DNA of 34,612 nt from a virus: positions 1 to 34,612 of the IMG/VR virus record IMGVR_UViG_3300009170_000014; one strand, given 5' to 3'. A program made the translations under genes and the position numbers. Under the pieces are notes generated by a model, which saw only the letters and a program-made list of their open reading frames with translations, was not told the DNA's origin and searched no databases. This document shows positions 12,316-27,604 of this stretch, piece after piece; within the stretch, counting starts at the first letter, position 1, and every line of letters begins with the position of its first letter.

Positions 12316-13503
12316 CTACTTCATTGCCATCTTGACAACTTCTGCATTAAGCATTAACTTTTGAAATTTAGCTTTATTGCTATTGATTACTTTCTTTACA
12401 ATGATATATTTCAAGTCATTAGTAAATACTTCACCAGTACAAAACTTGATTAATCTTTCTGTAACTGCCGGGGTAATTGTGTTACCTTCTGCATAGTTAC
12501 AAGTAAAGTTAATTAACCTTGTTACTAATACACTTGCAATATCAGCTCTATAGTCATTACCTACACCAATACAACCATTTAATTCACCAATGATATGAGA
12601 TTCATTTTGGTGTAATAACATGTCTTTAGGAGTTACTAACTTATCTAATTTATTATTAATAAATGTAGTAAAGAAAGTACTAAAAGTTGGATTAGTAGTA
12701 GCCTCACCTAATTGTTGAATCAATGGTAATTGATCAGCAAAATTATCAATAGACATTAAAGAGTTAAAGAACATAGTTACAGTTCTTGCATTGATATCTT
12801 CAGCATCCATTAACTCTGGGTGTAATAACAAGAAGTTGATACATCTTGAATCAATACCAGTTTTCTCTGCATATCTAGCCCATACATTAACATCAAACTT
12901 ATAGTTTACATTAATTACACGAGTCTTTTGAGCACCATCCATTGCTGATACAGAATAGTTTCCATTATCAGGATTAGAAGTTAAGATGATCATAGATCCT
13001 ACAGGTAAACACCAGTTATTATAACATTGAGTTTCTAATAAAGTCATAGTAGCTTGAATAAACTTTTCACTTGCTCTAGAATAATCATCTAATAATAAGA
13101 TCATTGGTTGTTCTTTACCATTAATCCATTCTGGAGAAGCATGAGTCATTCTGATCTTTCCTGATGGTTTAAGACCTGCAGTAATATATTGAGGAATTGC
13201 TCCTTCTACTACCCAGCGGTTAGTACCATCTTTAGCAATCATTTCATGTTCTTTACATGGATATCCTACTAGATCTGACACATCTTCTAACTCTGCTAAA
13301 TTCTTTCTAACTAATTCCATTCCTAGTTCATTAGCTAATTGTAAAATAGTAGAAGTCTTACCTCCACCAGCTTCACCTTCAATGTTTACTGCTTGTACAG
13401 CTAAACCTTTTTCAGATAATACTTTGTTATTGTTATAAATATAAGTTAAGAATGATTTTAATTCTTCTGAGTTTAAGCTAATTTTATTACTTGTTGTTGA
13501 CAT
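12316..13503 (-). CDS. MoxR-family AAA+ ATPase
   Basis: The 395-aa protein has a Walker A GEAGGGKT at 43-50, Walker B MILLLDDYSRAS with D139 and D140, a sensor-1 TSNPDN with N177, and ELEDVSDLVGYP at 71-82 typical of MoxR-type ATPases. The Walker B second acid is Asp instead of the usual Glu, so hydrolysis may be slow or altered. MoxR ATPases act as chaperones that remodel a partner carrying a VWA domain, and that partner is encoded 18 nt upstream (13522-14736). The ATPase reads as the second gene of the pair. It ends in TAG. Its role in a phage replication operon is unknown; maturation of a replication or virion complex is possible. Confidence 0.87.
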   Translation of the reverse strand: MSTTSNKISLNSEELKSFLTYIYNNNKVLSEKGLAVQAVNIEGEAGGGKTSTILQLANELGMELVRKNLAELEDVSDLVGYPCKEHEMIAKDGTNRWVVEGAIPQYITAGLKPSGKIRMTHASPEWINGKEQPMILLLDDYSRASEKFIQATMTLLETQCYNNWCLPVGSMIILTSNPDNGNYSVSAMDGAQKTRVINVNYKFDVNVWARYAEKTGIDSRCINFLLLHPELMDAEDINARTVTMFFNSLMSIDNFADQLPLIQQLGEATTNPTFSTFFTTFINNKLDKLVTPKDMLLHQNESHIIGELNGCIGVGNDYRADIASVLVTRLINFTCNYAEGNTITPAVTERLIKFCTGEVFTNDLKYIIVKKVINSNKAKFQKLMLNAEVVKMAMK

Positions 13504-13521: not shown

Positions 13522-14736
13522 TTAATTTAATTTAATTTGTAGACCTTTTAAGTCTGAATTAAGCTCAGACTGAGATGATATAACCCATAATACAGGACCT
13601 CTACACTTTTCTGGTGCAGGTGCTTCTCCATCAGTAAGATAGATCAAGCAGTTATATTTCTTTTTGTTTGCATCATAGTAATCTGTTACTGGATGAAAAC
13701 TGGTACCACCTCTACCATGAATTTCAAAATCCTTCTTAGGATCAAATTTCCCTATATGAGAAATTGCAGTATCACATTGTACAATAGTTACTTCTGTACC
13801 AGATCTACTAATGTGATGTATTTCATGCAAAAATTCTATAAGTTCATTTGTGCTTACTGAACCTGATGTATCTACAGCTACTAGGATATGTCTTTTTTCT
13901 TTATGCTTTAATCCTGGATTTTCAATAAATCTAAAATTAGGCTTTTGTCTTGACATCTTAGTAAATGTCTTAACTGATCCACCAACAAATCTTCTTACAT
14001 AAGCTCTCCAATTAAACTTTGGAGGATTAAGTTTAGAAATTTTATCAATGATTTCAGCCATTTCACCAGGAATAACTCCTCTGGATTTTGTTACTTGATC
14101 TACAACTTCTTTCAGTATATGCTCTGTTTGTGTTTTAATCAACTTCTTAGTTGCTTCATCTAGATTGTCAAACTCTTCCCATGTTCCATGATCAGGTAAT
14201 TTAACTTCAACTTCTCCTTGTCCATTAATAGATACAGTGATTCCACCTTCTCCTTTTTCATTACATTCAATCATCTTATCCAAATTAGGACATGTACCTG
14301 GATTCTCTTTAGCTTCTATCAACTTATCATAATAATACTTAGTACCTTTCTTAAGTTCTAAGTTTAATTCTGGATATACTTCAGGAAGTTGTGGCCCAGG
14401 TGGTAAGAAGATACTATCAATATATTGATTAATCTCAATATCCATAGCAATATTAGCTATCATTTTATCACTTAAGTGATCATAATCTGTGACATGAAAG
14501 AAAGCAATATGTAAAATCTCATGCTTTAATAATCCTATTCTTTGATCTGGAGTTAGTTTATCCCAGAATTCTTCATTGAGATATAATTGATAGTTAATTC
14601 CTAGTCTACTTACACCAGCTGTAGGTACTTTTGTACTCCATTGCTTATTAAGCATAATAAGAAAGAGACCATAAAAGGCCTCCTTTAACATCAAATCTTT
14701 ACTAGCCTTAGCTAGTTCTTCACTTTTGTTTTTCAT
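13522..14736 (-). CDS. Zincin-like metallopeptidase plus VWA domain protein (MoxR partner)
   Basis: The 404-aa protein joins two parts. At the N-terminus LLKHEILHIAFFHVT holds a zinc-type HExxH (H72, E73, H76), followed by NIAMDIEINQYI, the layout of the DUF2201 putative metallopeptidase domain. At the C-terminus there is a VWA domain with an intact MIDAS: ILVAVDTSGSVS (D289, S291, S293), GRGGTSF (T345) and YLTDGEAP (D369). Such proteins occur in bacteria next to MoxR ATPases, as here. The VWA part binds a divalent metal and a protein partner; whether the HExxH part cleaves anything is not established. It overlaps the 151-aa gene upstream by 17 nt. Confidence 0.85.
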   Translation of the reverse strand: MKNKSEELAKASKDLMLKEAFYGLFLIMLNKQWSTKVPTAGVSRLGINYQLYLNEEFWDKLTPDQRIGLLKHEILHIAFFHVTDYDHLSDKMIANIAMDIEINQYIDSIFLPPGPQLPEVYPELNLELKKGTKYYYDKLIEAKENPGTCPNLDKMIECNEKGEGGITVSINGQGEVEVKLPDHGTWEEFDNLDEATKKLIKTQTEHILKEVVDQVTKSRGVIPGEMAEIIDKISKLNPPKFNWRAYVRRFVGGSVKTFTKMSRQKPNFRFIENPGLKHKEKRHILVAVDTSGSVSTNELIEFLHEIHHISRSGTEVTIVQCDTAISHIGKFDPKKDFEIHGRGGTSFHPVTDYYDANKKKYNCLIYLTDGEAPAPEKCRGPVLWVISSQSELNSDLKGLQIKLN

Positions 14737-20451: not shown

Positions 20452-21030
20452 TTATTTACCAAATACTTTTTCAGTAAAAGTTGGTTGCTTAAACTCTTCA
20501 CCATTAAGTACTAAATCACAATAAGCAGCTAAATCAGATGACCATGACTTATCAGATTCTTGTTTTCTAATAAAATATTTAGAAGTTCTGGTATATTTAT
20601 ACCCTTTAGCTTCTTCAGCCTCAAGATATAATTCAGTTGCATCTAATATTACATCCCAAGCATAGTCATGCTCTGTAAAGAACCATCTAAAAGAAGTAAT
20701 AATTTCTTTGATTGGAGCTCTGGCTGGTTTATTACTACCAAGTTTCATTCTAGGAAATAAAGTATTATACTTCTCTGCATTAACATCAAAATCATCACCC
20801 ATAATTGAGTTATCAGACTTCTTAAGTTGTACTGCAAAATAAGATTCCATCTTACTGATTAAACTCATACTTTTAGGTTCTAAAAGATAAAGTTTATCAT
20901 TTTGTGTAAGCCAGGCATCTTGTATTAATAATCTTAGCTCTTGATGAACATTGATATTAGGAGGAGCTATACTATAATGAATGCAATAAAGTAGGTAAAA
21001 TTGGTTAGGAGTTAGTTTCTCCTCTGTCAT
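20452..21030 (-). CDS. Conserved replication-region protein, possible helicase loader (192 aa)
   Basis: I chose the ATG at 21030 (MTEEKLTPNQFYLLYCIHYS) because the upstream ATG at 21075 would overlap the DnaA-like gene by 71 nt and adds a sequence unlike the rest. The N-terminal third looks like a winged helix (TPNQFYLLYCIHY, LLIQDAWL). The C-terminal part has ARAPIKEIITSFRWFF, YAWDVILDATELYLEAEE and TSKYFIRKQESDKSWSSDLA, well conserved in Bacteroidota phages in my memory. Position between a DnaA-like protein and DnaB fits a loader or initiator, as with DnaD-like proteins; this is inference. Confidence 0.65.
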   Translation of the reverse strand: MTEEKLTPNQFYLLYCIHYSIAPPNINVHQELRLLIQDAWLTQNDKLYLLEPKSMSLISKMESYFAVQLKKSDNSIMGDDFDVNAEKYNTLFPRMKLGSNKPARAPIKEIITSFRWFFTEHDYAWDVILDATELYLEAEEAKGYKYTRTSKYFIRKQESDKSWSSDLAAYCDLVLNGEEFKQPTFTEKVFGK

Positions 21031-21484
21031 GTTGTTGAACAATATCAACAAGTTCATCTGTTTCTTTAAAGCCATCTTCTATTTCTTTTAGTATTGTTAA
21101 GGTTGTTTCTTCTTTAATTTCAATAAAGTTTTTTATTTTGTTTATACCATGTAAAACATTTGAATGATTAAATCCAAAATATTTACTAATACCTACTAAA
21201 GTATAGCCCATATTGTGAAGATGATAAAACATAGCTTGTCTGTAACATATTAAATCTCTATCTCTAACTCTTTGTTTTACTGTATAAACATCACCAAACT
21301 TCTTATACATTACAAAATTAACAATTTTCTCAACATCTTGTAGGGATAGAGGTCTGAGTTTGTTATTTCTATTTAAATAAAGCACTTTAGGTTGTGTTCC
21401 ATACTTTGAATAAAAGTTATCACAAAAAATTTTTACATCTTCCTCTTGCTCTTTTTCAAGTTTTTTCATTTCATTTGTTACCAT
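21005..21484 (-). CDS. DnaA domain IV-like DNA-binding protein
   Basis: Residues 74-120 contain RDRDLICYRQAMFYHLHNMG, then TLVGISKYFGFNHSNVLHGI, which follows the DnaA C-terminal helix-turn-helix with its signature (DnaA: RDHSTVLHA; here FNHSNVLHG). No AAA+ domain is present, and the N-terminal 70 residues are charged with no P-loop. It should bind a DnaA-box-like site. It may mark the phage origin, recruit the neighbour protein and DnaB, or compete with host DnaA. It overlaps the uracil-DNA glycosylase gene by 7 nt and the possible loader by 26 nt. Confidence 0.82.
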   Translation of the reverse strand: MVTNEMKKLEKEQEEDVKIFCDNFYSKYGTQPKVLYLNRNNKLRPLSLQDVEKIVNFVMYKKFGDVYTVKQRVRDRDLICYRQAMFYHLHNMGYTLVGISKYFGFNHSNVLHGINKIKNFIEIKEETTLTILKEIEDGFKETDELVDIVQQHDRGETNS

Positions 21485-23024: not shown

Positions 23025-23651
23025 TTAAATTGTTAATATAATATTGACATAATTTCTAAATAATTCTTTAAGCCCAAACTTTTCTGCATGCTTGATATAT
23101 TTTTCTATTTCTATACCATTATGTTCTATACATAAGCATTTACAGTTTACTGCTTTAAGATCAATCTGTTCTAATATAGCATAATCAGTTCCTTCAGTAT
23201 CACAGCTTATAAAATGCCATTCTGGACAAAAAGCTTTTTCTTTAAAACTATCAAATGTGAGAGTTTCAATTTCATACTGACTATATCTCATGCCATAAGT
23301 CATAAATTTTTTCTTTTCTTCTTCTACTATTGTAGAAAGTAACCCTGAATCAGCTTGTGTATAAAAACTAGAACTTTCATAAAACATAGTTGTTCCATTC
23401 TCAGCACTAATAGCAAATTCATGTAATCTTACATTATTGTTTTCATTATAAACTTTTTTAAGCTTTCTAAAAGGAATTGCTGCTGGCTCTACTAAATCAC
23501 CACACCAACCTTTTTCAAGCAAAGCTCTACTATTAGATAAGAATATGCCATCATTGGCACCTATATCTAAGAGATTTCCTTTATAATCAACACCATAATT
23601 ATCATTAAAATATTTAATGACTATGTCATCTTCTCCAAATTGTGAATACAT
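23025..23651 (-). CDS. FkbM-type SAM-dependent methyltransferase
   Basis: The 208-aa protein opens with MYSQFGEDDIVIKYF, then NLLDIGANDGIFLSNSRALL (SAM motif I at 28-35), LVEPAAIPFRKLKK and FISCDTEGTDYAILEQID. These are the marks of the FkbM methyltransferase family, which mostly O-methylates sugars and natural products. The length fits a minimal form. Together with the glycosyltransferase at 4327-5019 it may act on a glycan of virion or host surface; this link is inference. It is 10 nt upstream of the 38-aa gene. Confidence 0.82.
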   Translation of the reverse strand: MYSQFGEDDIVIKYFNDNYGVDYKGNLLDIGANDGIFLSNSRALLEKGWCGDLVEPAAIPFRKLKKVYNENNNVRLHEFAISAENGTTMFYESSSFYTQADSGLLSTIVEEEKKKFMTYGMRYSQYEIETLTFDSFKEKAFCPEWHFISCDTEGTDYAILEQIDLKAVNCKCLCIEHNGIEIEKYIKHAEKFGLKELFRNYVNIILTI

Positions 23652-23926: not shown

Positions 23927-24178
23927 TTAATAGTTTTCTTCTCTATTTGTGAATACTAACATCTTATTTTTTTCCTTGATAGCTTCTAATCTTTCTTTAT
24001 CAAGTTCTAAGATGCATTCTCCACCTAGTTCTAAGTCTGTTTCTATTTCATCTCTTTCAATGATTAAGGTTCTTATTGTCCTAGACAAACCTTTTGTTTC
24101 TGACTGATTAGCCAAAACTCTTTCTACATGCTTTAAGAACAATGTATCCTTAGCATAATCTTTTAAATTGATTTTCAT
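23927..24178 (-). CDS. Small helical hypothetical protein (83 aa)
   Basis: A charged helical protein with KHVERVLANQSETKGLSRTI and a glutamate-rich second half (RDEIETDLELGGECILELDK). No family is recognised. It overlaps the 105-aa gene upstream by 4 nt (ATGA), which supports the chosen start. Confidence 0.62.
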   Translation of the reverse strand: MKINLKDYAKDTLFLKHVERVLANQSETKGLSRTIRTLIIERDEIETDLELGGECILELDKERLEAIKEKNKMLVFTNREENY

Positions 24179-24492
24179 TCTGAGTAGTATTCATTAAGTT
24201 CATGTACTTCTTCTTTAGCTTCCTTTAGAATTTTTTCTAAAGCTGCTTCTATGTCCCAGCCTTGAGTTACCGGTAAGCCAAATCTATTGGCTGCAAAAAA
24301 TTGATAAGGAAAGTATGAGTCAATATTAAGTTCTTCTAACTTAAAACCTACCATACCACCTTGAATCAATAATTTTGCTACTTTAGTTACTGTGTATGTC
24401 TGCCCTTCTACTAACCATTTAGAGTTAGGAATATCATTGGGCTTACTCTTGTTGTCCAAGCATATCACTTGGAAGGGTGTCTTCATTTCCAT
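24175..24492 (-). CDS. Conserved small phage protein (105 aa)
   Basis: The protein has PFQVICLDNKSKPNDIPNSK, WLVEGQTYTVTKVAKLL, GGMVGFKLEEL and YFPYQFFAANRFGL, then a helical acidic tail. The pattern of a small beta-barrel reading VICxD...P.SKWxxxGxxYTV and FKLxE...YFAANRFG is common in Bacteroidota phages as I recall; function unknown. Its start overlaps the 110-aa gene by about 44-50 nt, depending on whether M1 or M3 (MKTPFQ) is used. Confidence 0.66.
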   Translation of the reverse strand: MEMKTPFQVICLDNKSKPNDIPNSKWLVEGQTYTVTKVAKLLIQGGMVGFKLEELNIDSYFPYQFFAANRFGLPVTQGWDIEAALEKILKEAKEEVHELNEYYSE

Positions 24493-24775
24493 CTTCTTCT
24501 GGTTCTATATAGTTAGGGTTCCATTGTGGGTCTGTTGACTCTTCAGGTACATAATGACCTTTTTCAGTTGCTTGTAATCTTAAAGTTCTATGATATGTTT
24601 CTTCATCATCTTCATGTAGACTATGAGAAGACTGTCCTGTAGGAATAAAGTCCTCATCACACTGATATAAAGTAATATCTAAGAATTGTTTTACACCCTC
24701 ATCATTAGTTAAGTGTGCAGGTAGAGTCATAAACTTCATTTTTATGTCACCTATTTGTATTGCTGTTGTTGCCAT
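24443..24775 (-). CDS. Hypothetical acidic protein (110 aa)
   Basis: The N-terminal half is strand-like (AIQIGDIKMKFMTLPAHL); the rest is acidic and low in hydrophobic residues (EDDEETYHRTLRLQ, NYIEPEEDGNEDT), probably disordered. The ATG is preceded by TATATTTG plus 4 nt, the same spacing seen before the plus-strand gene at 22220. No family is recognised. Confidence 0.6.
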   Translation of the reverse strand: MATTAIQIGDIKMKFMTLPAHLTNDEGVKQFLDITLYQCDEDFIPTGQSSHSLHEDDEETYHRTLRLQATEKGHYVPEESTDPQWNPNYIEPEEDGNEDTLPSDMLGQQE

Positions 24776-24787
24776 GTTGCAAATATA

Positions 24788-25039
24788 TTAAAATCTTTTA
24801 ATTGTTACCTTATAAAATTTAATATTTGCTATTGGGCTTAAATCAACTTCAATAGCTTCAATTAATTTATGAGGATAAGGTTGTTTTGTTAATGTTTTAA
24901 ATGTAGTTTCATTAAGATTACTCTTGTAATCCCATGATCCATGCCACTTAATAGTTGTACCCCGGTTGATGGGAGTTTCTATTGTTCTTAGTTCTGAGTT
25001 TTGCATTAAGATATGCTCATCAAGTTTAGGTAAATCCAT
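24788..25039 (-). CDS. Small hypothetical protein (83 aa)
   Basis: A polar small protein with TTIKWHGSWDYKSNLNETTF in the middle and strand-like LIEAIEVDLSPIANIKFYKV at the end. No family is recognised. It lies one base after the stop of the 50-aa gene, inside the coupled accessory operon. Confidence 0.58.
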   Translation of the reverse strand: MDLPKLDEHILMQNSELRTIETPINRGTTIKWHGSWDYKSNLNETTFKTLTKQPYPHKLIEAIEVDLSPIANIKFYKVTIKRF

Positions 25040-25040
25040 A

Positions 25041-25193
25041 TTATTTTAATTTTGTAATATATAGTTTAATGCATAAAAAATAATAACATGTTCTAACTAG
25101 ATCATATTCTCCTCCGTAATATGGTAACACATCCATTGAAGGTATAACATGCCATTCAACTAAGTTTACTATAATTTTTACTTGTTTTTTCAT
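25041..25193 (-). CDS. 50-aa microprotein downstream of clpS-like gene
   Basis: ATG 25193-25191 overlaps the ClpS-like gene's stop as TAATG, and TAA is at 25043-25041, one base before the next ATG. The peptide has a strand-like start (KKQVKIIVNLVEWHVIPS) and a tyrosine-rich, hydrophobic end (CYYFLCIKLYITKLK). It might associate with membranes. Support is the tight fit between its neighbours. Confidence 0.55.
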   Translation of the reverse strand: MKKQVKIIVNLVEWHVIPSMDVLPYYGGEYDLVRTCYYFLCIKLYITKLK

Positions 25194-25483
25194 TATTCTA
25201 TTTTTACTGATAAGTGATTCTCTTGTAATGCTTCATAAATAGGTTTAAGTTTTTTCTGACTACCATGTTTAATATCACATTTACCATTATTGTGTACAAT
25301 AGATGCTACTTGTTCAGCTTGTTCAATAGAATGATTACAGTATAATATTAAACATTCAATAACATGTTCAAATGAATTTACATCATCATTGTAAAGAATT
25401 ATAGCCTTACTAGGTTCAGTCATCTCTTTAATTTCAGCTTCAAGCTGTTTCTCCACTATTGGGTCCAGGGTTATTGTTTCCAT
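25193..25483 (-). CDS. ClpS-like N-degron adaptor protein
   Basis: Residues 27-96 align with ClpS without gaps up to the central histidine: AIILYNDDVNSFEHVIECL, then SIEQAEQVASIVHNNGKCDI. The residues that hold the N-terminal amino group are kept (N32, D33, D34 and H64, matching E. coli N34, D35, D36 and H66). Two pocket residues differ: F38 stands for Met40 and A60 for Met62, so the bound N-terminal residue may differ from the usual Leu/Phe/Trp/Tyr. ClpS delivers substrates to ClpAP. The phage copy might redirect or block host ClpAP/ClpCP; this is inference. M21 (25423) is an alternative start that avoids the 44-nt overlap with the upstream gene. Confidence 0.85.
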   Translation of the reverse strand: METITLDPIVEKQLEAEIKEMTEPSKAIILYNDDVNSFEHVIECLILYCNHSIEQAEQVASIVHNNGKCDIKHGSQKKLKPIYEALQENHLSVKIE

Positions 25484-25769
25484 TTCTTGATTTTTTAATT
25501 ACTTGATCTCTTACATCATAAGTTAAGTCCATTAACAAGTCATATATTTCTTGCTGTTCCATTGAAGTAGTACTACCTTCTTTATAGTTGGTAAGTTTGT
25601 TCAAAGCTTCTTCATATTCTTTTACAGTAGAAAACAGTTTTTTAAAATAATGTTTAAACTGAAACCTATGCTCTGGTAAGGTATGAATTAATTCTGATAA
25701 ACATCTAACATGTGCAAGCATTAATGTGATGTTAAGGGCATCATCTTGTTTTAAATTTTGGTGGCTCAT
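25440..25769 (-). CDS. Hypothetical helical protein (109 aa) next to ClpS-like gene
   Basis: Helical throughout: NITLMLAHVRCLSELIHTLP, KHYFKKLFSTVKEYEEALNK and QEIYDLLMDLTYDVRDQVIK, with a polar tail. No family is recognised. It overlaps the helicase start region by 4 nt on its upstream side and the ClpS-like gene by 44 nt on its downstream side, and could be a partner or substrate of the adaptor by position. Confidence 0.62.
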   Translation of the reverse strand: MSHQNLKQDDALNITLMLAHVRCLSELIHTLPEHRFQFKHYFKKLFSTVKEYEEALNKLTNYKEGSTTSMEQQEIYDLLMDLTYDVRDQVIKKSRNGNNNPGPNSGETA

Positions 25770-26854
25770 ATCCAGGTTATTTTTGTTTGGTCATAATCTT
25801 CTAAAGCTTTGATTACCCAATCTTCATCTATAGTATTTATATAACATAATACATGTATTGTAGATTTATCATTTGGGTTTAATCTTAAAAGCCTACCTAT
25901 TCTTTGACTAGCTTTTCTTTCATTACCATAAGCATGCATAATTATACCTATTTTAAGATTAGGAATATTAATACCTTCTGATAATTGTAAGACACAGCTT
26001 AGTTCATCAATCTTTCCAGCTTTAAAATCTTGTAGATTGTATTCAGAATTAGGATTACCACTATGATAACTATTATCACAAAGTCTATCAGCTTGTTCTT
26101 GAGTATTAGCAAACAATAAAGTTTTCTCAGTAGTAGACATTAACAAATTTTTAGCATAAGCTTCCTTAGTAGGAAAGTTCATTATGGCTTTCATTCTCAT
26201 GATTCTCATCATATGAATTTCTTTATCACTACTAGCTCTATGACATCTACCAGTCCAATATTTGTAATTAGCTGATTCTGATGTGTAAAAGAACTTTGGT
26301 GCTTTGCCTGCTTTCATGTTTTGTTTTGTGTCTAGTTCTAAGGTGTGCACTATAATTTTATAATCATTAAGAATATTATCTTCTATTGCAGTATCTGTTT
26401 CATATTTGTATACTACTGGAATAAATTGCTTAAACATCTTTCCTTTTTCTGATTGTTCAATTTTTGGTGGTGTACCTGTTAATCCTATTAAGATGCCTTG
26501 ATAATCATTTAACCACAATGAATGTGATTTTAACAAAGAATGAGCCTCATCTAAATATACTGCTTGATAATCTATATCTTGATTTATAAGTGATAAATAA
26601 GTACTAAAAGTAATATGAGATATTAAATACTCCATATCAAACTTTTTAGCATCATCTTTCCATGATTGAAATATGGAAATTTTTGGAGCAACTACAAGAA
26701 AGAAAGCATTATCATGATACAAAGAAGCCATATGTTTTAATCCTACTAATGTTTTACCAGTTCCTACTGACATAGCCACAGTTCCTCTTTTTACTTTACT
26801 TAAAGCTTTTAATGCTTCTGTTTGTATTTGATCTTTAGTTTTTTTCATTAACAT
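25766..26854 (-). CDS. Superfamily 2 helicase (SNF2/DEAD-like)
   Basis: The 362-aa protein has motif I SVGTGKT (29-35), LVVAPKIS (Ia, 53-60), motif II LDEAHS (101-106), motif III TGTPP (126-130), a motif V-like LSEGINIPNL and motif VI QRIGRLLRL near the end. The two RecA-like domains are complete but there is little extra sequence, which is the compact phage form. It may remodel forks, aid recombination or unwind RNA. crAss-like genomes carry a similar gene. M3 is an equally possible start. The gene overlaps the 70-aa gene by 20 nt. Confidence 0.9.
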   Translation of the reverse strand: MLMKKTKDQIQTEALKALSKVKRGTVAMSVGTGKTLVGLKHMASLYHDNAFFLVVAPKISIFQSWKDDAKKFDMEYLISHITFSTYLSLINQDIDYQAVYLDEAHSLLKSHSLWLNDYQGILIGLTGTPPKIEQSEKGKMFKQFIPVVYKYETDTAIEDNILNDYKIIVHTLELDTKQNMKAGKAPKFFYTSESANYKYWTGRCHRASSDKEIHMMRIMRMKAIMNFPTKEAYAKNLLMSTTEKTLLFANTQEQADRLCDNSYHSGNPNSEYNLQDFKAGKIDELSCVLQLSEGINIPNLKIGIIMHAYGNERKASQRIGRLLRLNPNDKSTIHVLCYINTIDEDWVIKALEDYDQTKITWI

Positions 26855-27047
26855 TCATTTTTATTGTATTGTTTTTACATAAAGTTACATCATTACTATT
26901 GTAATGTTTAATAACACCAGTTTGTTCAAGAGCTACAACAAATATTGTGTTTTCATGTACACCATAGTCCATAAGAAATAGAACTTGTCCATCTCCATGA
27001 GGTGTAGTAACCCACATTATTTGCTGTAATTCATGAATAACTGTCAT
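26835..27047 (-). CDS. Small conserved protein (70 aa)
   Basis: The sequence IMWVTTPHGDGQVLFLMDYG, followed by HENTIFVVALEQTG and IKHYNSNDV, looks like a small beta-barrel. I have seen this pattern (WVxTPHGxGxVLFxxDYGxxxNTxWVV) as a short conserved protein of Bacteroidota phages and mobile elements. Function unknown. It lies 5 nt downstream of the 183-aa gene. Confidence 0.65.
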   Translation of the reverse strand: MTVIHELQQIMWVTTPHGDGQVLFLMDYGVHENTIFVVALEQTGVIKHYNSNDVTLCKNNTIKMNVNEKN

Positions 27048-27052
27048 AATAT

Positions 27053-27604
27053 TTAGTCTGTTGTAAAGTTAGGAATAATCTCTGTAAAACCAATAGGAGG
27101 CTCTTTCATGACACTTATTCTGTCTCTTGCCCAAGTTCCTATTAATTCCATACTATTTCCATGATAGTCTCCACCACCTCTTCCATTTCCTTCTGCTGTT
27201 AGTAAAGGTAAAGGATGAACCCTCATCTCATCTGTATTCCAATTTCCATTTATAGGTTTACATTTAGTTTTATCTACAAACTCTTGTCTGTCCCAGTTAA
27301 CTAAATAATGATAATTTGGTGGTATAGCTTCAATAAGCATTGTAAGTGCATTTTTTTCTTGAGATGATTCATATAAAGTCTCACCTTCCTTTGCTTCAGG
27401 ATCAGCATAATCTCCAGCCCATACTATTCTTTTGCCAGACCATCTTGCTTTATCTGTACCATTATCTAATAATAAAAACTCTACAGATTCTACAAATAGA
27501 TTACCTATGTAAGAATGTTCCATAAGTTTAGCTCCATTTCCAGATTCATGTGGAGAAACCCATTCCATTGTATCACTGTTTATTGCTATGTAGTATTGAC
27601 CCAT
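27053..27604 (-). CDS. MGQYY-family conserved protein (183 aa)
   Basis: The protein starts MGQYYIAINSDTMEWVSPHE, then GNGAKLMEHSYIGNLFVESV, RIVWAGDYADPE and YHYLVNWDRQEFVD, ending HPLPLLTAEGNGRGGGDYHG and ELIGTWARD. This family is widespread in phages and bacteria and has no proven function in my knowledge; the pattern of conserved tryptophan, asparagine and glycine suggests an enzyme or sugar-binding fold. It begins close to the two-helix membrane gene upstream (27606), with one base between. Confidence 0.72.
   Translation of the reverse strand: MGQYYIAINSDTMEWVSPHESGNGAKLMEHSYIGNLFVESVEFLLLDNGTDKARWSGKRIVWAGDYADPEAKEGETLYESSQEKNALTMLIEAIPPNYHYLVNWDRQEFVDKTKCKPINGNWNTDEMRVHPLPLLTAEGNGRGGGDYHGNSMELIGTWARDRISVMKEPPIGFTEIIPNFTTD

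Follow-up and report, generated by a model that had tools for sequence, protein, structure and literature searches.

The window, that is, the whole viral stretch of 34,612 bases analysed here, carries on its minus strand a genuine clpS gene (Table 1). It is probable that the tailed phage in question, most likely infecting Bacteroidota, carries this clpS, of the Bacteroidota type, as an established member of its helicase/replication region, and that a working adaptor made from it would raise the dose of ClpS and steer the host Clp unfoldase to N-degron substrates. Likely Bacteroidota phages repeatedly carry such a host-type ClpS behind a helicase and may in this way steer regulated proteolysis. 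The first-pass annotation had described a phage-encoded ClpS with a changed N-degron pocket; that the protein is a ClpS and that a phage carries it are both borne out, and the alteration of the pocket by the phage is not, Phe at position 40 with Ala, Ser or Thr at position 62 (E. coli numbering) being what chromosomal Bacteroidota ClpS normally have.

Table 1 Features of the clpS region of the window
Feature	Position	Strand	Evidence
clpS, 96-aa ClpS adaptor	25193..25483	-	ORF list, sequence, PF02617 (5.8e-15), fold match
N-terminal extension (residues 1-25, with EPS at the junction)	25409..25483	-	pLDDT, junction comparison, dN/dS 0.27 against L097
ClpS core domain, residues 26-96	25196..25408	-	pLDDT 93-97 from residue 31; Z 14.8 to 9ayo_B
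NDD motif (N32 D33 D34), N-degron pocket	25382..25390	-	sequence; 72-row alignment
F38 codon (E. coli Met40)	25370..25372	-	sequence, alignment counts
A60 codon (E. coli Met62)	25304..25306	-	sequence, alignment counts
H64 codon (E. coli His66)	25292..25294	-	sequence; invariant in 72-row alignment
109-aa ORF between helicase and clpS	25440..25769	-	overlaps clpS by 44 bases
SF2/ResIII-type helicase, upstream of clpS	25766..26854	-	ResIII 2.2e-12, phrog_16 4.5e-37

The gene starts with ATG, runs for 96 codons from 25483 to 25193 and lies in a tightly packed gene array, its TAA stop (25195-25193) overlapping the ATG with which the next ORF opens at 25193. ClpS is the sole Pfam family matched by the product at E ≤ 0.1, and its score of 55.3 bits exceeds the cut-off of 23, so the NDD and His matches are not accidental, and there is a weaker match to the PHROGs 'ATP-dependent protease' family (3.8e-6). 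In NCBIfam the protein stays below the cut-offs of the ClpS equivalogs (the best is NF009563, with 37.8 bits against 117), these cut-offs having been applied to the window protein alone. The residues N32, D33, D34, F38, A60 and H64 are all present as had been claimed, and in an alignment of 72 ClpS rows N32, D33 and H64 are invariant and D34 is nearly so. Since the spacing from N32 to H64 equals that from N34 to H66 of E. coli (32 residues, gapless), F38 and A60 occupy the places of Met40 and Met62.

The AlphaFold model, built on the 72-row alignment, has a mean pLDDT of 86.6; averaged by blocks, the values are 57-58 over residues 1-20 and reach 93-97 from residue 31 onwards. The first core strand is placed at residues 26-31 and is preceded by an extension of about 25 residues, which is the normal length for ClpS, with a low-confidence helix at residues 8-22. 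Ranks 1-25 of the VIA-align search are all ClpS or ClpS-containing chains with Z of 12.7-14.8, the top match being 9ayo_B (rmsd 0.9 over 73 residues), and portions of yeast Ubr1 and ribosomal L7/L12 come next with Z of 10-11. The extension ends in the junction EPS, and a junction EPS, EPT or EPA is also seen in L002, L097, L098, L100 and L102. The junction proline is found in 20 of 39 non-redundant phage rows against 5 of 47 non-redundant rows of close hosts (absent in 42); as a phage hallmark it was rejected, since in the wider phylum sample it is shared by 30 of 52 rows.

The proper yardstick for the pocket is the ClpS of Bacteroidota rather than that of E. coli. Among close chromosomal relatives, which bear Bacteroidota titles (many of them Flavobacteriales) save for one titled Verrucomicrobia, all 79 unique cores have Phe at position 40, while position 62 is Ala in 54, Ser in 16 and Thr in 9. 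These close hosts (L015-L094) are the top 80 among 535 confirmed stretches, chosen by likeness to the query with two search patterns that leave positions 40 and 62 free. The Pfam profile, which finds a ClpS match in 195 of 198 genomes of the phylum, was used for a wider sample consisting of the 30 best-scoring loci and 40 more spread down the listed places, with the weakest matches lying outside the listing; one of the 70 loci (L212) had no ORF passing the profile and was dropped, leaving 69 loci with 68 unique cores. Here position 40 is Phe in 67 cores and Tyr in one, and position 62 is Thr in 38, Ala in 17 and Ser in 13. Ala, Ser or Thr is thus found at position 62 in all 147 Bacteroidota cores, and no Met was found at position 40 or 62 among the 79 close and 68 wider ones. 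The 56 unique viral cores, from 93 loci (L002-L014 and L095-L174, excluding the later L255-L292), have Phe at position 40 in every case and Ala (49), Thr (5) or Ser (2) at position 62; the pattern NDDVNSF used for the viral set fixes Phe for a part of it, and 30 of the 56 cores are without Val37 and were thus found otherwise.

The comparison was extended to ten pocket positions (E. coli 32, 33, 34, 35, 38, 40, 43, 62, 65 and 66), derived with an offset of 13 from the Caulobacter positions given in the excerpted text of PMC12493166, from which an eleventh, Leu112, was omitted because its placement is unsafe. The string of the window protein, LYNDNFVAVH, recurs exactly in 44 of the 79 close chromosomal cores, in 1 of the 68 of the wider sample and in 12 of 50 viral cores with an extension. 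Measured against chromosomal Bacteroidota ClpS, a pocket altered by the phage was rejected, and the residues that it was tempting to call changed are to be corrected to the phylum norm. As Phe40 with Ala, Ser or Thr62 is normal in Bacteroidota, the F/A pair gives no ground for expecting the phage copy to read N-termini of another class than the ClpS of its likely host, and since the neighbouring helicase points to Bacteroidota phages, in whose hosts these residues are normal, the pocket looks host-like by its sequence.

The chromosomal Bacteroidota ClpS share with the window protein the NDD motif, the His, Phe40, Ala, Ser or Thr62 and an extension of similar length; that of a Flavobacteriales MAG (L015) is 63% identical to it over residues 25-96, and that of Flavobacterium endophyticum (L055) 54% over residues 13-95. 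Besides the junction proline, the window protein differs from the close hosts at E. coli position 39 (Ser against Thr in 78 of 79) and at position 61 (Val against Cys in 78 of 79). The ClpS of E. coli (3o2b, 1mbu) and Caulobacter (3dnj) have the core fold, the NDD motif, the His and an extension in common with it but possess Met40 and Met62 instead of Phe and Ala, with 22-25% identity over the aligned core, and the C-terminal part also differs from that of E. coli ClpS. An aromatic/small pair is not unique to the window protein, for Leptospira ClpS1 has Tyr36 at the place of Met40 and Ala58 at that of Met62, although this is a chromosomal rather than a phage protein in which Asp replaces the conserved His (PMC12493166, in the part available).

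Phage-borne ClpS have already been published, and the window gene adds another such case that is ordinary for its kind. According to the available part of a 2021 comparison (PMC7824862), several jumbo phages carry ClpS, which were proposed to bring target proteins to the host ClpAP, and an excerpt of PMC6102473 lists ClpS (gp708) among seven Clp-like proteins of Atu_ph07. The phage ClpS printed in these portions of the two papers belong to jumbo phages, whereas the window is a 34.6 kb record with a 101.9 kb near-twin. The protein A0A8D9CC24 from an uncultured marine phage, 52% identical to that of the window in the aligned part, is already named ClpS.

The host is likely to be a member of Bacteroidota, which is suggested by the helicase encoded next to clpS. 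It matches 81 phage records, namely Flavobacterium (29), Bacteroides (27), uncultured (16), Cellulophaga (2) and Bacteriophage (2) ones and five singles, the latter including the crAss-like genera Kehishuvirus and Kolpuevirus. The 947 records matched by the DNA polymerase are headed by Vibrio phages at about 35%, and Cellulophaga phage phi14:2 is one of the 25 matches listed; these matches say little on the host. A search of the phage collection for distant relatives of the DNA of 24000-27200 gave no match. The near-twin contig of 101,922 bases encodes a ClpS 99% identical to that of the window. The 109-aa ORF between helicase and clpS has no Pfam family above cut-off, and its relatives are present in L002, L003, L097 and L112. 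The window proteins were searched for in 103 loci from the viral and phage collections, and in 24 of these the helicase gene is found upstream of clpS and on its strand. The 24 loci correspond to 21 contigs (three were fetched twice) and to about 15 kinds when near-identical ones are merged by eye; helicase identities are 46-98%, and the gaps range from some 25 bases to over 1 kb.

In one scan 260 viral stretches encoding relatives were confirmed, 80 of which were kept. In the phage collection of 50,697 records, clear relatives were detected only in three uncultured genomes of 635-642 kb (37-46%, E 1e-14 to 1e-18), and 13 further records match at E 0.1 or worse. The clpS gene is under purifying selection, its dN/dS being 0.04 against L002 and 0.09 against L003, both near-twins, and 0.30 against L097, whose ClpS is 79% identical to that of the window; in the last comparison the constraint is similar for extension (0.27) and core (0.31). 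Purifying selection, the conserved helicase-clpS order and the E-P-S/T/A junctions are marks of a gene in use. A tree of 128 rows (45 phage, 83 host) and 74 columns, with good support for 29 of its 125 inner branches, has seven label changes, at least two of them forced by well-supported branches. A single origin of phage ClpS was not upheld, the phage proteins being scattered over more than one clade of this 128-row tree, and no source can be named from it. One record filed as 'Acinetobacter phage MD-2021a' (CAKLQH020000043.1, L252) contains argC, clpS and clpA and appears to be host chromosome; no relatives of this Acinetobacter ClpS were found by search.

In E. coli, as described in the accessible part of PMC9663308, the ClpS core docks on the N-domain of ClpA with the N-degron held in the pocket, and the disordered extension enters the ClpA pore, by which ClpS is remodelled and the substrate handed on. 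As far as sequence and model show, the elements of this delivery design are present in the window protein. Clp_N domains were found in all three Bacteroidota genomes tested, in ORFs of 847-886 aa (ClpC or ClpB), and in none of seven phage records including the window, the latter count being weak as several of these records may be fragments; a host unfoldase is therefore the likely partner. The phage ClpS would be produced together with the helicase and bind the N-domain of a host unfoldase of the ClpC/ClpA type, its extension would be inserted into the unfoldase pore if the E. coli mechanism applies, and the proteins delivered would bear the same N-degrons as those of the host ClpS. A higher dose of ClpS would then push the host Clp protease to N-degron substrates and away from others, and the phage might gain from the removal of host proteins, from the sparing of its own proteins or from the amino acids freed.

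Several other explanations have to be weighed against such a working adaptor. The protein might be a phage protein with the fold of the L7/L12 C-terminal domain and no ClpS at all, given that the fold matches ranking next include L7/L12 (1ctf, Z 10.3; E 7.3e-3). We regard this as extremely improbable, for ClpS structures outrank L7/L12 in the fold searches, no L7/L12 family is among the Pfam matches of the window protein at E ≤ 0.1, where ClpS is the one family, and the pocket residues N32, D33 and H64 do not vary in the alignment. It is also quite improbable that clpS is a passenger of host derivation, kept by chance and without present use: clear matches (E 1e-14 or better) in only three of the 50,697 phage records would agree with a gene of this kind, but the dN/dS values are well under 1, the same gene order recurs in 21 contigs at helicase identities of 46-98%, and the confirmed viral stretches number 260.

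The first-pass annotation had further suggested that the phage copy, through F38 and A60, feeds to the protease a class of host proteins unlike that fed by the host ClpS, or that it occupies the protease and so protects phage proteins. The former is very improbable. In E. coli Met40 is said to act as the gatekeeper, and for Leptospira ClpS1 a change of specificity through the aromatic residue at this place was proposed (both in the excerpted text of PMC12493166), but the chromosomal ClpS of Bacteroidota have the same Phe40, replaced once by Tyr, with Ala, Ser or Thr62 in all 147 cores and Met in none. A more far-reaching proposal, which we consider rather doubtful, is that the Phe40 and Ala/Ser/Thr62 pocket of Bacteroidota as such reads N-termini unlike those read by E. 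coli ClpS (for instance, aromatics better and Leu worse), and that phages of the phylum carry the adaptor beside the replication helicase, directing this phylum-specific N-degron pathway against selected host proteins at an early stage of infection; a limited literature search met no measurement of the N-terminus preference of the Bacteroidota-type pocket, from which no absence of such data is claimed. Occupation of the protease is possible as an effect of dose, to which the two residues add no support. In its pure form, with the excess phage ClpS sitting on the N-domain of host ClpC and shielding phage proteins without any delivery, it is unlikely, though not far-fetched: E. coli ClpS inhibits the degradation of ssrA-tagged proteins by ClpAP (PMC9663308, same part), a surplus of ClpS may do likewise, and ClpS-like proteins of other phages lack the extension (14 of 34 loci) or have a decayed pocket, but in the window protein the extension is retained and the pocket is intact, both parts being alike constrained against L097, and a pure decoy needs neither. 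The presence of the extension favours delivery over blocking.

Such variants of other phages merit more attention than the clpS of the window itself. Mini-ClpS of about 73-76 aa without the N-terminal extension account for the 14 of 34 loci of one scan (L008-L014 and L259-L272, on partly shared contigs, e.g. L010:4995-5213). The Met with which they begin stands six residues ahead of NDD and is preceded, one codon upstream, by a stop codon, so no N-terminal extension is encoded, and they retain NDD (NDN in L263), Phe and His, one of them giving a Pfam match of 2.5e-9. Going by the mechanism in E. coli, it is a fair guess that mini-ClpS might bind without delivering and act as a natural Clp inhibitor.

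The ClpS-like proteins of the Serratia phage BF type, from jumbo phages, are 173-177 aa long owing to an extra N-terminal part (L253:2806-3327, L256-L258), and a search with the BF protein gave four loci, all of the BF kind. BF (L253) and L256 retain N-D with F40/A62, NDD is lost in L257 and L258 and the His in L258, and the three tested (L253, L256, L258) are still above the ClpS cut-off. E. coli and Serratia belong to the same order, and E. coli ClpS has Met at both positions, unlike BF; by these sequences, a pocket altered by the phage is a live idea for the BF kin. Two BFVD entries annotated as bL12 C-terminal domain, A0A7M1RVW0 and A0A7M1RYT6 from the uncultured phages cr50_1 and cr126_1, weakly match the ClpS model (E about 0.01), and some such proteins may be diverged ClpS-like ones.

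Elsewhere on the minus strand of the window, a protein with an AAA match below cut-off (0.0084, 17 bits against 21.2) stands beside a DUF2201 VWA-like/putative metallopeptidase protein (1.1e-18, 1.2e-16) at 12316-13503 and 13522-14736, a pair which is possibly a second proteolysis or remodelling module of the same phage. On the same strand, an ORF at 21005-21484, between the genes for uracil-DNA glycosylase and a DnaB-type helicase, has a DnaA C-terminal-like helix-turn-helix just below cut-off (30.9 against 31.5 bits), and the ORF at 23025-23651 contains an FkbM-type methyltransferase domain (5.9e-13).
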